The notes beneath the pieces are model-generated. The model worked only from the letters and a program-made list of their open reading frames with translations. It made no database searches and was not told the origin of the DNA. Position numbers and translations under genes: made by a program. DNA of 64,000 bases from an uncultured Pelagibacteraceae bacterium (GTDB lineage: Bacteria > Pseudomonadota > Alphaproteobacteria > Pelagibacterales > Pelagibacteraceae): the NCBI GenBank assembly GCA_902578525.1, contig CACHDJ010000003.1, positions 1-64,000 of the forward strand, in the 5' to 3' direction. Positions 18,597-35,838 of the stretch are shown here, piece by piece. Within the stretch, counting starts at the first letter, position 1; every line of letters begins with the position of its first letter.

Positions 18597-19481
18597 TTAT
18601 TTTACAAGAAAATTCACTTTTTTATTTGATAGATTTAAATGAATTTTTTTATATGAACCAAAATTATCTCCATCAATTTGAACAGGTATCAAATCATTTC
18701 CATCAATTGTAATGTTTTGTGCATAAGTAGTAATAACATTTTTATTTTTACTTAAATCACCATTAAGAATTATTAAAAAAATTGAATATAATAAACTAAT
18801 CCTAGTCAAATCTTTAAATATATAGGTGACTAATTTCTCTTCAAAAATATTTGTTTTATTTATTTTATGATGTCCAGCGTAATATTTGGTATTTGAAGAT
18901 AATATCCAGTCTGCTTGATAAAATTGACCATCAAAAGTGACATTTAACTTTTTATTATTCATAAACAAGAAATATTGAAAACCTTTGATACCAAATATAA
19001 TTTTACCTAGAATCTTTTTAATTTTTGAATTAATTGAATGAACAATTTTTGCATCCCATCCTATACCAGCCATTAAAAAGAAATAATTATCGTTAATTTT
19101 TACAAGATTAGAGGATTTATAATTATTAGAAACCAACACATTTACTATATCATCAACTTTTTTATTCATTGATAATTCAGCTTGAAGCAAATTTGCAGTG
19201 CCAGCAGGAATATAACCTATGGCAAAATCGTCTTTAAAATCAAAATTATTTTTAATTAATTCATTAATTGCAAAAGAAACTGAACCATCACCACCAGCTA
19301 CTATTAGTCGATCATAATTTTTTTGATTAAAATTTTTGAAAATTTTCTTAGCTTGATTTATTGTTTTTGTTTCAAAGTAGTCTACAGAAATATTCTCTTT
19401 TAACTTAGATAAAATCCTATTTATGAATATAGATTTTCTTCCAGAGGAAGAATTCAAATTATAAATCAAACAACATAACAT
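18597..19481 (-). CDS. Diacylglycerol kinase family lipid kinase
   Basis: A 294-residue soluble lipid kinase of the DAGK catalytic / YegS family, which phosphorylates diacylglycerol or a similar lipid with ATP. The signature VAGGDGSVSFAINELI is at about residues 61-76, and GYIPAGTANLLQAEL at about 92-106. The C-terminal half is the usual beta-sandwich (VTFDGQFYQADWILSSN...). It is divergent from plcP across 98 bases, and its upstream region holds a minus-strand PhoB-like box. Next to PlcP, which releases diacylglycerol from phospholipids, a DAG kinase would return part of that diacylglycerol to phosphatidic acid. That role is inference from context. Confidence 0.85.
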   Translation of the reverse strand: MLCCLIYNLNSSSGRKSIFINRILSKLKENISVDYFETKTINQAKKIFKNFNQKNYDRLIVAGGDGSVSFAINELIKNNFDFKDDFAIGYIPAGTANLLQAELSMNKKVDDIVNVLVSNNYKSSNLVKINDNYFFLMAGIGWDAKIVHSINSKIKKILGKIIFGIKGFQYFLFMNNKKLNVTFDGQFYQADWILSSNTKYYAGHHKINKTNIFEEKLVTYIFKDLTRISLLYSIFLIILNGDLSKNKNVITTYAQNITIDGNDLIPVQIDGDNFGSYKKIHLNLSNKKVNFLVK

Positions 19482-19500
19482 AATTAATCCTTAAAAAATT

Positions 19501-19518
19501 TTTAACAAATTTGTAACA
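19501..19518 (+). promoter_or_regulatory. Putative PhoB box for plcP-agt
   Basis: TTTAACA at 19501 and TGTAACA at 19512 are direct 7-mers exactly 11 bases apart, the spacing of PhoB half-sites. A weak -10-like AATAAA follows at 19528. Orientation points to plcP. The same 7-mers recur upstream of pstS. AT-richness raises the chance level. Confidence 0.6.
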
Positions 19519-19547
19519 TTCAAATGAAATAAAAAGTACATGATTCG

Positions 19548-19565
19548 TGTTACAGTTGTATTAAA
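19548..19565 (-). promoter_or_regulatory. Putative PhoB box for the diacylglycerol kinase gene
   Basis: On the minus strand, TTTAATA (19565-19559) and TGTAACA (19554-19548) are 11 bases apart. A TACTTT hexamer lies 9 bases further, a plausible -10. It would drive the lipid kinase gene, divergent from the plcP box in the same 98-base gap. Confidence 0.5.
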
Positions 19566-19579
19566 ATATAGGTCTTTAA

Positions 19580-20392
19580 ATGCCTAATTTACTTAAATAT
19601 AAAAGTATATTTATTTCTGATGTTCATTTAGGTACCAAGGGTTGTCAGGCAAAAAAACTTTTAGAGTTTTTTAAAAACTCAAGATCCGAAAATCTTTATC
19701 TTGTAGGGGACATTATAGATATCTGGGAAATGCAAAAAAGTTTTTTTTGGCCTCAAGAACATAATGATGTAATCCAAAAAATTTTAAGAAAAGCTAGACA
19801 TGGTACCAAAGTTTTCTACATAATGGGTAATCATGACGAAATGTTAAGAAAATTTATTCCAATGCATTTTGGTGATATCCATATGGTTAATAGAGTTATT
19901 CATGAAACAAATGCAGGAAAAAAATATGTTGTTGTTCATGGTGATGCTTGGGATGGTGTTATGAAACATGCTAAATGGTTATCTAAACTTGGATCAATAG
20001 CCTATAATTTACTATTAAAATTAAATGTAATAATTAACTTTTTTAGAAGATTGAGAGGAAAAGAATATTGGTCTCTTGCAAAATTTTTAAAGTATAAAGT
20101 CAAAAATGCAGTTAAATATATTGGTGAATATGAAAAAACACTTTCAGATTATGCAAAAAGAAAAAAATTTGATGGAATTATTTGTGGCCACATCCATCAT
20201 GCTGAGGATAGAGACTTTAATGGGGTCAATTATTTAAATTGTGGAGACTGGGTTGAATCTTGTACCGCATTAGCCGAAAATTATGATGGTAGTTTTGAAA
20301 TATTATATTGGGACAAAATAAGAGAACAATATTTAGACGATAAAGAAATAATTAAACCAATTAAAACTGAAGAATTAAAAAAAGCTTCATAA
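19580..20392 (+). CDS. plcP: PlcP-type metallophosphoesterase (phospholipid-degrading, lipid renovation)
   Basis: A calcineurin-like phosphoesterase of 270 residues. Metal-binding blocks are FISDVHLGTKGCQAKK (about 10-25), LVGDIIDIWEM (about 42-52), IMGNHDEM (about 81-88), VVHGDAWD (about 117-124) and GIICGHIHHAE (about 197-207). These fit both LpxH-like UDP-diacylglucosamine diphosphatases and PlcP. The next gene is an Agt-type glycosyltransferase, and the pair sits in a phosphate locus behind a PhoB-like box. PlcP, which cleaves the head group off membrane phospholipids during phosphate starvation, is therefore the better call. In rhizobia and marine heterotrophs the plcP-agt pair carries out this lipid exchange. 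Many databases would name it UDP-2,3-diacylglucosamine diphosphatase. Confidence 0.82.
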   Translation: MPNLLKYKSIFISDVHLGTKGCQAKKLLEFFKNSRSENLYLVGDIIDIWEMQKSFFWPQEHNDVIQKILRKARHGTKVFYIMGNHDEMLRKFIPMHFGDIHMVNRVIHETNAGKKYVVVHGDAWDGVMKHAKWLSKLGSIAYNLLLKLNVIINFFRRLRGKEYWSLAKFLKYKVKNAVKYIGEYEKTLSDYAKRKKFDGIICGHIHHAEDRDFNGVNYLNCGDWVESCTALAENYDGSFEILYWDKIREQYLDDKEIIKPIKTEELKKAS

Positions 20393-20395
20393 TTA

Positions 20396-21403
20396 ATGAA
20401 AATTTTAATTGCTACAGATGCATATTTTCCACAAGTAAATGGTGTCGTAAGAACCTTACATGAAACAGGTAATGTATTAAAAGAACAAGGTCATAGAATA
20501 GAATATATTACACCTGACTTATTTTTTACTTTTCCGATGCCGAAATATAATGAAATTAAGTTGTCTATAAATGTATGGCCAAGAGTTGGTAATTTAATAA
20601 AGAAAATCAATCCAGATGCAATTCATATCGCTACCGAAGGCCCGATAGGCACTATGGCAAGAAGATATTGTTTAAAAAATAATCTAAAGTTTACTACGAG
20701 TTTCCATACAAGATTTGATAAATATCTAAAACTTTACTTTCCTATTATACCAGCAAAATGGGCTGAAAAATTCTTAGCAAATTTTCATAATAAGGCTGAG
20801 AGAATTTTAGTAACTACAGAGTCTATGAGAAAAGAATTAATCGATATAGGTATAGATGACAATAAAATGATTACTTGGACTAGAGGAGGAAATCATGGAG
20901 CTTTTAAGAACCCTAAAAAAATTGATTTACCTCATAAAAGACCTATTTGGATTTATGTTGGAAGAGTTGCAGTTGAAAAAAACATAAGAGCTTTTTTAGA
21001 ATGTGATTTAGAAGGTACAAAAATAATTATAGGAAAAGGACCTGATTTAAAAAAATTGAAAAAAGAATTCCCTAAAGATATTTTTTTAGGAGAAAAAACA
21101 AATGGTGAATTAGCATCACATTTTGCATCTTCTGATGTTTTTGTATTTCCAAGCAAAACAGATACATTTGGAATTGTAGTTACAGAGGCTTTAAATTGTG
21201 GAACTCCTGTAGCTGCTTATCCTGTTCCAGGTCCTAAAGATATATTTGAGGGCTCTAAAATAGATTGTTTAGATAATGATCTTAAAGTTTCAGCACATAA
21301 AGCTTTAAAAGTTGATCGAAATGATTGTCTTGAATTTGCAAAAAAATTCACTTGGGAAGAAACAGCAAAAATATTTTTTAATAATATTTCACCAAATCAT
21401 TAG
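20396..21403 (+). CDS. agt: Agt-type GT4 glycosyltransferase, glycolipid synthesis
   Basis: A 335-residue retaining glycosyltransferase of family GT4 (GT-B fold). The N-terminal acceptor domain begins ILIATDAYFPQVNGVVRTL and contains TSFHTRFDKYLKLYFP near residue 102. The nucleotide-sugar domain contains IYVGRVAVEKNIRAFLE near 187, and FVFPSKTDTFGIVVTEALNCGTPV near 250-273, which holds the EX7E-like element. It lies 3 bases after plcP. In the PlcP/Agt pathway this enzyme adds glucose or glucuronic acid to the diacylglycerol made by PlcP, giving phosphorus-free membrane lipids. That assignment rests on family and pairing; the sugar donor cannot be told from sequence. Confidence 0.85.
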   Translation: MKILIATDAYFPQVNGVVRTLHETGNVLKEQGHRIEYITPDLFFTFPMPKYNEIKLSINVWPRVGNLIKKINPDAIHIATEGPIGTMARRYCLKNNLKFTTSFHTRFDKYLKLYFPIIPAKWAEKFLANFHNKAERILVTTESMRKELIDIGIDDNKMITWTRGGNHGAFKNPKKIDLPHKRPIWIYVGRVAVEKNIRAFLECDLEGTKIIIGKGPDLKKLKKEFPKDIFLGEKTNGELASHFASSDVFVFPSKTDTFGIVVTEALNCGTPVAAYPVPGPKDIFEGSKIDCLDNDLKVSAHKALKVDRNDCLEFAKKFTWEETAKIFFNNISPNH

Positions 21404-21467: not shown

Positions 21468-22613
21468 ATGGAATATTTCGTCATTCTACTTATAGTTGTT
21501 ATAATTTATCTCCTCTATTTACTTAATCAAAAAAAAAATAAATCAATAAATACCGCTACAATAATTAATAAAAGAGAAGAAAAAACTAAAAGAGTAATTA
21601 TTGATGAACTAGAGGATCAGTTTTTTGCATTAAATAAATTTAACATAATTAAATATGCCAATCCAAGTGCATTAAAAAGATTTGGAAGTAATTTAATTGA
21701 TAAAAACATATCTTCTATAATTCGAAAACCAGAATTAATAGAAAATATTGAAAAAGCTATCGTAGAAAATAAAACAAAAAATATCGATGTTGAAATAGAC
21801 CTCCCATCATATCAATTCTATAAAATTTATATTATTCCTGGCCCAACTCATTTGTTTACTGAACCAGACTCTGTTGTGTTATTTTTAAAAGATTTTACTG
21901 AAATTACAAAAGCACAAAAATTTAAAACTGATTTTGTAGCAAATGTAAGCCATGAATTAAGAACACCTTTAATGGCAATCAAAGGATCACTAGAAACAAT
22001 TGAGGGCCCAGCGTCTGATGATGAAAAGGCTAAAAAAAAATTTATGAAAATAATGACTGATCAATCAAATAGAATGGAAAATTTAATTAATGATCTTTTA
22101 ATACTCACAAGAATTGAATTAGAAGAACACATAAGGCCAAACTCTTTAGTTGATATAAATGATCTTTTCAAAACAATCATCAGTAATTTTGAGATTATTT
22201 TAAAAAGAAAGAAATTAAATATTAATTTATCTCTCGCCAATCCAACAGTCGTTATTGGAGATGAAAAAAAATTACAAACTGTTTTTTCTAATCTTTTAGA
22301 TAATGCAATTAAGTATTCAAAGGAAAATAAGTCTATTTTTATATCAAGCAAAATTAGCGATGGTAAATTGTTAGAAAAAAATTTTATGATCAGTATTAAA
22401 GACGAAGGTGTTGGCATTCCTCAAAGATATATTTCTAGAATTACAGAAAGATTTTTTAGGGTAGATCTTGAACAAAGTAACAAGGTTGGTGGAACCGGTT
22501 TAGGATTAGCTATAGTTAAACATATAGTTACTCAACATCGTGGACATTATGAGATTCTAAGTGAGGAAAACCAAGGAACTGAAATTCAAATTTATTTACC
22601 AGCGAAAACTTAA
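21468..22613 (+). CDS. phoR: Phosphate regulon sensor histidine kinase PhoR
   Basis: Sensor kinase of 381 residues, expected to phosphorylate PhoB (encoded 6 kb downstream) when phosphate is scarce. One N-terminal membrane helix (about residues 3-21) is followed by a charged linker and a PAS-like domain (about 45-140). The phosphoacceptor motif is FVANVSHELRTPLMAIKGS, with His162. The ATPase domain shows NLLDNAIKYS, DEGVGIPQ, ITERFFRVD and GGTGLGLAIVKHI. The single membrane helix and lack of a periplasmic domain are as in classic PhoR, which senses through Pst and PhoU. It is separated from phoB by the pst genes, unlike the adjacent phoBR of enterics. Confidence 0.88.
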   Translation: MEYFVILLIVVIIYLLYLLNQKKNKSINTATIINKREEKTKRVIIDELEDQFFALNKFNIIKYANPSALKRFGSNLIDKNISSIIRKPELIENIEKAIVENKTKNIDVEIDLPSYQFYKIYIIPGPTHLFTEPDSVVLFLKDFTEITKAQKFKTDFVANVSHELRTPLMAIKGSLETIEGPASDDEKAKKKFMKIMTDQSNRMENLINDLLILTRIELEEHIRPNSLVDINDLFKTIISNFEIILKRKKLNINLSLANPTVVIGDEKKLQTVFSNLLDNAIKYSKENKSIFISSKISDGKLLEKNFMISIKDEGVGIPQRYISRITERFFRVDLEQSNKVGGTGLGLAIVKHIVTQHRGHYEILSEENQGTEIQIYLPAKT

Positions 22614-22703: not shown

Positions 22704-23312
22704 ATGGTTAAAATATTCAAAAATATTTTGATTTTTGCTTTTTTATTAAGCTCTATAACAACAAGTGTTTTTTCTAAAGATATCACAACATTATTAAGAA
22801 ATCAGCAACTTACAGTTTTTGATATTGGAATTTTTAGATTAGAAGCAGATTTAAAAACTTCATATCCTTCTATAAAAGATCATTTAGAAGTTACTGAAGC
22901 TGAATTTTATACAGACGTAGTTACCTCGTATTCTAAAAATTCAATTGATTTAATTGTTTCTGTTCCTATGAATAAAAATCTCAAGAAGGAAAATTATTTT
23001 TCAGATTCTTTTAGATGTAGGAATATTTTTAATTCTGTAAGAGATTTTTTATTGAGGAATGAAAATTTGAGTAATTACAGATATACTATGGCTACAAGTT
23101 ATTTAACCTCTATATTTTCAACCCCAAGTTCATGGCCTAGCTGGAGATATGATGAAGAAATTAGAGAAGAATTAGTAAACTTAGTAAAACTAGAAATAAC
23201 TTTACGTCCAAGCAATGAACTCGCTATTAATGAACAGGTAAACCCTGTTTCATGTATTGGTGGCCTAGAAACTGATATTGATCAGATAATTATTTCAAAA
23301 AAATACAACTAA
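22704..23312 (+). CDS. Uncharacterised exported protein in the phosphate locus
   Basis: I do not recognise the family. The 202-residue product has a clear signal peptide (FKNILIFAFLLSSITTSVFS, cleavage expected before KD at about residue 24). The mature part, about 178 residues, has two cysteines (FRCRNIF and VSCIGG) that could form a disulfide, and no obvious metal or nucleotide motif. It lies between phoR (90 bases upstream) and pstS (109 bases downstream), on the same strand. Its own upstream region holds a weak PhoB-like pattern (TGTAATA at 22632 and TTTAACA at 22654, two 11-base turns apart). Position suggests a periplasmic role in phosphate starvation; that is inference. Confidence 0.75.
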   Translation: MVKIFKNILIFAFLLSSITTSVFSKDITTLLRNQQLTVFDIGIFRLEADLKTSYPSIKDHLEVTEAEFYTDVVTSYSKNSIDLIVSVPMNKNLKKENYFSDSFRCRNIFNSVRDFLLRNENLSNYRYTMATSYLTSIFSTPSSWPSWRYDEEIREELVNLVKLEITLRPSNELAINEQVNPVSCIGGLETDIDQIIISKKYN

Positions 23313-23323
23313 AAAGTTACCTT

Positions 23324-23352
23324 TTTAACAAAAGTGTAACAATTCTGTAATA
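23324..23352 (+). promoter_or_regulatory. Triple PhoB box upstream of pstS
   Basis: Three direct 7-mers at exact 11-base spacing: TTTAACA (23324), TGTAACA (23335) and TGTAATA (23346). A weaker fourth (AAAGTTA) is one turn upstream. An AATAAA hexamer about 10 bases downstream could be the -10. This is the clearest PhoB-type site in the window and precedes the phosphate-binding protein gene. Confidence 0.8.
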
Positions 23353-23421
23353 TTAAAGATTCAATAAATTTATACGAGTCAGTCATCTTTTAATTAATAA
23401 ATAACGAAAGGATTAAAGATA

Positions 23422-28658: not shown

Positions 28659-29342
28659 ATGTCAGCTCATGTTTTCATAGCTGAAGATGAAGCATCAATT
28701 GTTAGTTTGTTAAAGTATAATCTTGAAAAAGAAGGTTATAAAGTCAGTCATTCAGAAAATGGAGAAGATGCTCTTAAACAAATAAAATCAAAACAGCCAG
28801 ATTTGATATTAATGGATTGGATGTTACCTGAATTATCTGGTGTTGAAATTTGTAAAAACTTAAAAAAAGATAATAAGTTTAATGATATTCCTGTCATTAT
28901 GTTAACTGCAAAAGGGGAGGAAGAAGACAAATTAAAAGCATTTGATACAGGTGCAGATGATTATGTAACTAAACCTTTTAGTCAAAAAGAATTAAATGCT
29001 AGAATTAAATCTTTATTGAGAAGATCTAAGCCTCAATCATCATCAGACATTGTAGAATTTACTGATTTAAAAATAGATCGGATTACAAAAAGAGTTTATA
29101 GAAAAGATAAGGAAATTACTTTAGGTCCAACTGAATTTAAACTATTAGATTTTTTTATCAAAAATCCAAAAAGAGTTTATTCAAGAGAACAACTTCTAAA
29201 TAATGTTTGGGGGGAAGATATATATGTTGAGTCTAGAACAGTAGATGTTCATATTAGAAGATTAAGACAAGCAATTAATATACAAAATACAAAACCTTTA
29301 ATTAGAACAGTGAGATCAGCTGGTTATTCTTTAGAATCTTGA
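28659..29342 (+). CDS. phoB: Phosphate regulon response regulator PhoB
   Basis: DNA-binding response regulator of the phosphate regulon, 227 residues. The receiver domain has acidic residues AEDE at 8-11, phosphoacceptor Asp53 in LILMDWMLPE, the switch Thr in VIMLTAKGEE and Lys in YVTKPFSQKEL. The C-terminal OmpR-type winged helix (about 130-227) includes LGPTEFKLLDFFIKNPKRVYSREQLLNNVWG and RTVDVHIRRLRQAI. It is the likely binder of the 11-base repeats upstream of pstS, plcP, the lipid kinase gene and the arsC operon. The last 19 bases overlap the convergent sixA gene. Confidence 0.93.
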   Translation: MSAHVFIAEDEASIVSLLKYNLEKEGYKVSHSENGEDALKQIKSKQPDLILMDWMLPELSGVEICKNLKKDNKFNDIPVIMLTAKGEEEDKLKAFDTGADDYVTKPFSQKELNARIKSLLRRSKPQSSSDIVEFTDLKIDRITKRVYRKDKEITLGPTEFKLLDFFIKNPKRVYSREQLLNNVWGEDIYVESRTVDVHIRRLRQAINIQNTKPLIRTVRSAGYSLES

Positions 29343-35790: not shown

Positions 35791-35819
35791 TATTTCAGTT
35801 ATGTTAAGAATTTATTACA
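35791..35819 (-). promoter_or_regulatory. Putative PhoB box for the arsC-aquaporin operon
   Basis: On the minus strand, TGTAATA (35819-35813), CTTAACA (35808-35802) and TGAAATA (35797-35791) are each 11 bases apart. TAATAA lies 9 bases after the second repeat and is a good -10, leaving a short leader with AAAGGG before the ATG at 35768. Confidence 0.6.
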
Positions 35820-35838
35820 GTTTATATGAAAAATAATC

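Follow-up and report, generated by a model that had tools for sequence, protein, structure and literature searches.

A candidate bidirectional PhoB promoter between a lipid kinase gene and plcP-agt in one SAR11 lineage

The 98 bp gap that separates a divergently transcribed lipid kinase gene from plcP-agt is likely to be a compact bidirectional promoter, in which two inward-facing PhoB boxes predicted from the sequence would co-induce the kinase and plcP-agt, with the kinase returning diacylglycerol (DAG). The exchange of phospholipids for glycolipids helps SAR11 in the phosphate-poor ocean. The Pho boxes of plcP clusters are already known; what differs here is a kinase with a predicted PhoB box of its own, in one SAR11 lineage. 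Earlier work has passed over the kinase beside plcP or listed it as having nothing to do with phosphate, despite its tie to plcP. The features of the window, which is the whole 64 kb stretch of DNA that was analysed, are as follows.

18597-19481, minus strand: DgkB/YegS-type lipid kinase gene, 294 aa, divergent from plcP
19482-19579: intergenic gap (98 bp) between the lipid kinase gene (minus strand) and plcP-agt (plus strand)
19500-19518, plus strand: predicted PhoB box on the plcP-agt side, TTTTAAC-AAAT-TTGTAAC-A
19528-19533, plus strand: putative -10 of the plcP promoter, AATAAA; AATAAG or GATAAG in most relatives, with the ATAA core conserved
19538-19533, minus strand: putative -10 of the kinase promoter, TACTTT; TATTTC or TAATTC in most relatives
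19542-19546: GATTC, a GANTC (CcrM methylation) site, 24 nt past the plus half-site and at the expected plcP start
19566-19548, minus strand: predicted PhoB box on the kinase side, TTTTAAT-ACAA-CTGTAAC-A
19580-20392, plus strand: plcP, predicted metallophosphoesterase-type phospholipase C (Metallophos, PF00149)
20396-21403, plus strand: agt, GT4 glycosyltransferase (Glyco_transf_4 and Glycos_transf_1), directly 3' of plcP
21468-22613, plus strand: phoR, phosphate-regulon sensor kinase (TIGR02966, 281.9 bits; cut-off 334)
23323-23352, plus strand: pstS PhoB box of three 11 bp repeats, the independent reference used in matrix training
23358-23362 and 23376-23380: GANTC sites of the pstS promoter, one of the two at +6
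28659-29342, plus strand: phoB, the response regulator expected at the boxes (TIGR02154, 331.9 bits; cut-off 296.2)

An earlier note on this DNA had described one 11-base-spaced repeat pair on each strand of the gap (19501/19512 and 19565/19554), and both were found at those positions. The 7-mers are TTTAACA at 19501 and TGTAACA at 19512 on the plcP side, and TTTAATA at 19565 and TGTAACA at 19554 on the kinase side, with a spacing of 11 in each case. Both sides therefore have two half-sites 11 bp apart, like the pstS box of this organism. The boxes were scored with a 19-position weight matrix, trained on the pstS promoters alone from 40+ relatives. The two overlapping pstS sites score 24.9 and 24.2, the plcP box 24.4, and the kinase-side box 20.2; these are the top four in the window, and the next-best site scores 14.6. 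The exact zero-order probability per position is 3e-9 for the plcP box and 1e-7 for the kinase-side box, and sites as strong as the latter are expected by chance at 0.2 per 1 Mb, or 1.6e-5 per 98 bp gap. These values identify both boxes as predicted PhoB sites, well above chance.

The pattern TTTTAACANNNNTGTAACA, which was composed with the sites already known (the pstS matrix is independent of them), has two exact matches in the genome that holds the window (1.0 Mb, 81.6% complete), those of plcP and pstS. A further two matches have one mismatch, and the kinase-side box is one of these. Other sites with one or two mismatches to the pattern (L142, L143, L146, L147 and L156) lie inside or across coding sequence and were judged to be chance occurrences. 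A SAR11-specific model was built because the E. coli Pho consensus CTGTCATNNNNCTGTCAT barely beat its reversed control in the same genome, with 44 matches against 35.

The two boxes face inward onto one short core. Of 127 loci read, in a sample weighted to the window's lineage, 106 keep both boxes and represent 59 distinct intergenic sequences. The inner TGTAAC half-sites are exactly 31 bp apart in all 59. The -10-like hexamer that had been noted after each repeat pair is present on both strands, 10 nt beyond its own inner half-site without exception (59/59 distinct sequences), and the two hexamers abut at 19533. The one on the minus strand is weak, being a poor match to TATAAT, and its first two positions (19537-19538) are T-A and invariant in the 59 sequences. 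A standard sigma-70 scan of the region found no -35/-10 promoter, which is how an activator-dependent promoter is expected to look. From this spacing, transcripts would start near 19540 on the plus strand and near 19526 on the minus strand, divergent by about 14 bp. The gap is probably a bidirectional promoter with a predicted PhoB site on each flank, at which the two starts compete for polymerase.

Under phosphate limitation, the PhoR-PhoB system, encoded close by, would load both boxes with phosphorylated PhoB. The left box would then recruit RNA polymerase rightward, to plcP-agt, and the right box would recruit it leftward, to the lipid kinase. Because the inner half-sites are only 31 bp apart and the -10 hexamers abut, the core would hold one polymerase at a time, such that the kinase and plcP-agt would be induced jointly yet have to divide the initiation events between them. 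Cleavage of phospholipids by PlcP would yield DAG, Agt would add a sugar to this to make a phosphorus-free glycolipid, and the kinase would turn surplus DAG back to phosphatidic acid, as a relief or recycling valve. In this scheme we infer the binding of PhoB, the transcript starts, the competition, and the substrate and role of the kinase. The second box thereby suggests a testable role for the kinase, that of a DAG return valve.

The predicted kinase matches the Pfam family DAGK_cat at 75.8 bits (cut-off 23.6). Its nearest match among solved proteins is Staphylococcus aureus DgkB (PDB 2qv7, E 1.7e-20), and its predicted fold is also nearest DgkB (TM 0.74-0.77), with YegS and the sphingosine kinases matching too. 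The GGDG motif is invariant among the SAR11 kinase homologues. The DDG motif of the DgkB C-terminal Mg site, reportedly described in the DgkB structure paper as a structural motif of importance, is not kept in the SAR11 kinases, which have EEK, DDK or ENR there. By homology, this is a DgkB-like lipid kinase. Each of the five plcP-carrying genomes that were tested has this gene as its only DAGK_cat gene and yielded no DgkA-type gene. The same holds for the window's own genome, where the absence of other kinases is provisional because the genome is 81.6% complete. DAGK_cat genes are missing altogether from six complete Pelagibacter genomes that lack plcP. Across 297 genomes of the family, 126 have both the kinase and plcP, 156 have neither, 6 have plcP only, and 9 have the kinase only, a co-occurrence whose p-value ignores shared ancestry. 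In several of the plcP-only genomes the match sits at a contig end, and five of the kinase-only genomes have distant homologues of genus g5 that lack the box. In other alphaproteobacterial genera, a kinase of the same family is directly divergent to plcP in 20 of 29 plcP loci. The association of the kinase with plcP-agt thus extends far outside SAR11 and does not hinge on its promoter. Since HTCC7211-type and other lineages keep the kinase-plcP pair without a kinase-side box, the kinase does not need Pho control to function, which speaks against the scheme above. A DAGK gene found in HTCC7211 only has been counted with the SAR11 genes whose representation differs from one ocean site to another (PMC3686209).

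DAG recycling is the likely predicted function. There is a modest chance that the kinase acts on another lipid, such as a glycolipid, a lyso-lipid or a sphingoid base, which would leave the reading of the promoter unaffected. The fold matches to YegS and the sphingosine kinases and the degenerate Mg-site motif would fit such a substrate, but DgkB is the best match by both sequence and fold, and the kinase is tied across the whole class to an enzyme that produces DAG.

The kinase-side box is well conserved where it occurs. Mean column identity is 97% for the plus half-sites and 95% for the minus half-sites, against 81% for the adjoining plcP leader, which indicates that the minus-strand box is under constraint in the window's lineage. 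Every plcP promoter of the family that was scored has the plcP-side box, with scores of 12-26. The kinase-side box is present in L009-L031, L037, L040, L041, L044, L047, and closely related GTDB loci, and scores 16.6-22.5 in relatives of the same lineage. It is absent, with the plus box kept, from the Pelagibacter lineages L032-L036, L038, L039 (which is HTCC7211), L042, L043, L045 and L046, and also from the other genera scored that have the kinase-plcP pair. The identity of L039 is supported by its amt gene, whose end at 1227766 agrees with Table 2 of PMC5069720. HTCC7211-type Pelagibacter and the remaining genera scored all have minus-box scores under 4, and a search for a hidden kinase-side box in the HTCC7211-type and g2/g4 lineages gave best minus-strand scores at chance level. 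The two-box gap is therefore not a general SAR11 feature and is confined to one lineage. The conservation of both boxes in SAR11 strains with plcP-agt, which the earlier note had proposed as a check, holds for the window's lineage, in 59 sequences, and fails in HTCC7211-type Pelagibacter and other genera.

It is rather improbable that PhoB works only at the plus box, with constitutive expression of the kinase and minus repeats that merely resemble a box and are weak or neutral. The lineages that keep the kinase-plcP pair without the box are in keeping with this, as is the weak minus -10. Against it are the probability of 1e-7 per position for the kinase-side box and the 31 bp geometry, invariant in 59 sequences. 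In addition, half-sites have been kept while spacers changed. In L037 (genome G192), the bases between the minus half-sites are altered (TTGTAACAATATTGTAAC) and the half-sites retained, and both boxes persist in a cassette that lies outside the phoR-pst region. It is probable from the sequence data that both sides are turned on together in the window's lineage. The suggestion in the earlier note that the kinase is switched on with plcP-agt is well supported there, where the boxes are conserved, PhoR and PhoB are adjacent, and the kinase is tied to plcP. It does not stand as a rule for SAR11, the kinase-side box being missing in HTCC7211 and in other lineages and genera.

Different layouts were seen elsewhere. 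In g2/g4 loci (L048, L050 and L053-L055), the end of the plus box and the kinase start codon are only a few bases apart (judged by eye for L048), and PhoB bound there for plcP might hinder the kinase. Genome G019 (genus g5) was considered as a second case and set aside. Its boxes are back-to-back in a different layout (L058:1561-1604), and a CAAX-protease-like gene, not the kinase, shares them with plcP. Beyond SAR11, a search of kinase/plcP gaps with a generic Pho consensus produced results that were not consistent.

The two-box strains form one clade in the kinase tree (97/97) but not in the plcP tree, although there a constraint to one clade is not rejected (p-AU 0.107), and the linkage of the box to an allele is thus argued from the kinase tree and from the DNA identity of L035 and L036. 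These two strains are 89-97% identical to the window on both flanks and 59-91% identical over about 18.6-20.5 kb, a block that consists of the kinase, the gap and plcP. This drop in identity points to cassette exchange by recombination, with the box travelling with the kinase allele. The kinase-side box goes with a single kinase allele and does not characterize SAR11 as a whole. The idea that the right-hand box mainly tunes plcP-agt, with PhoB there a roadblock or competitor that limits plcP and kinase induction a by-product or absent, is also improbable. In its favour, the minus box begins about 8 bp past the expected plcP start, and activators at E. coli bidirectional promoters repress the opposite transcript through polymerase competition (PMC12825309). 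Against it, a conserved T-A start of a -10 faces the kinase at the canonical 10 nt spacing and the box follows the kinase allele (97/97) rather than plcP, for which a single clade is not rejected (p-AU 0.107).

A natural contrast is offered by alleles of the kinase that have or lack predicted Pho control, among them those of otherwise close strains that differ in the block. HTCC7211, the well-known lipid-remodelling strain, lacks the kinase-side box, and results on its kinase are not transferable to the two-box lineage. As a separate observation, the end of a manC-like gene in L087, L088 and L015 runs in frame into a phoR-like N-terminal fragment (2583 onward in L087) that has a strong Pho box (26.3); this fusion beside the kinase is probably a recombination scar.

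The GATTC at the expected plcP start is part of a wider pattern across the family, in which GANTC sites of plcP and pstS promoters keep a fixed distance (+6, +24 to +26) from the PhoB half-site. A GANTC lies at +22 to +30 from the inner half-site in 54 of 55 distinct plcP promoters, nearly always at 24-26 nt; counted by divergent groups, 11 of 12 have it, where shuffling gives a mean of 0.2. At a like position it is found in 26 of 33 pstS promoters, and in 3 of 6 of their divergent groups (mean of 0.1 after shuffling), and the promoter of the HTCC7211 GNAT gene has one at +24. Three of the seven non-tRNA intergenic GANTCs in the window are in the plcP and pstS promoters. The genome encodes a CcrM orthologue of 356 aa (L242, G000:C1:114325-114984, minus strand; PDB 6pbd, E 8e-140), and no Pfam match to GcrA was found in it. 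GANTC methylation is established in Pelagibacter (PMC9516812), and in Caulobacter phosphate starvation alters GANTC methylation at a PhoB-dependent promoter (PMC5172544). It is possible, as a tentative proposal, that DNA methylation, and with it the replication state, gates phosphate and lipid genes through PhoB boxes combined with a start-fixed GANTC, and that in one lineage this site lies in a two-way promoter whose kinase arm is gained or lost by cassette swap. In the pstS promoters the N base varies. In the plcP promoters it is always T, and a plain sequence requirement of the start site is therefore an equal alternative for plcP. The positions of these sites hint at a possible link of DNA methylation to the phosphate response in a genus with mapped GANTC methylation.

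The genes 3' of plcP-agt are phoR, pstS, pstC, pstA, pstB, phoU and phoB, with the pst and phoU names taken from translations. Between phoR and pstS (22704-23312) lies a reading frame of 202 aa that is conserved in relatives, at 43-55% identity, and has no Pfam or NCBIfam match. Further along, a weak triple Pho-like repeat (35791-35820, minus strand; 14.6 and 13.9) is upstream of arsC-like, aquaporin and nudix genes, and the same gene pair in genome G023 has strong boxes (L236:2938-2967). In HTCC7211 (G035), the neighbours of agt are GNAT and acyltransferase genes by Pfam, behind a weak Pho box (15.8), a pair that appears to be of the ornithine-lipid type. Carini 2015 is said to describe a four-gene cluster induced in HTCC7211; this set would be the GNAT and acyltransferase genes with plcP-agt, the kinase excluded. 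A literature search, Carini 2015 not covered, found no paper that places the kinase under a Pho box.

The window has the same plcP-agt gene pair as the SAR11 and marine clusters of PMC4796936, and its plcP is so named by homology with the SAR11 PlcP of that study. Putative Pho boxes in plcP clusters were published there, and the activity of SAR11 Agt has been tested and shown (PMC4796936, PMC8231724). The main text of PMC4796936 does not contain the word 'kinase', whereas the window's lineage has a divergent kinase with its own predicted box. The HIMB59 phosphate islands (PMC10734472) hold the same three gene types (DGK, LpxH-like and RfaG-like), but the kinase is listed there without a direct phosphate function and promoters were not analysed. 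In promoter structure, the gap is like the PhoB promoters of E. coli, which have two 7 bp half-sites 11 bp apart and a -10 at 10 nt (PMC3465305), and PhoB and PhoR are encoded in the same cluster as the gap. It differs from the E. coli Pho box, with its consensus CTGTCAT-A(AT)A(TA)-CTGT(CA)A(CT) (PMC3465305), in that the SAR11 box is AT-rich (TTTTAACANNNNTGTAACA) and two boxes are directed onto one common core. Bidirectional promoters with shared or abutting -10s have divergent starts within 7-25 bp, and polymerase engages them in only one orientation at any time (PMC12825309, PMC10268837). In E. coli, activation in one direction tends to come with repression of the opposite transcript, through competition for polymerase (PMC12825309). 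The published cases have an activator for one direction, whereas the SAR11 gap would have one activator with a site for each direction, for which co-induction with sharing is expected.
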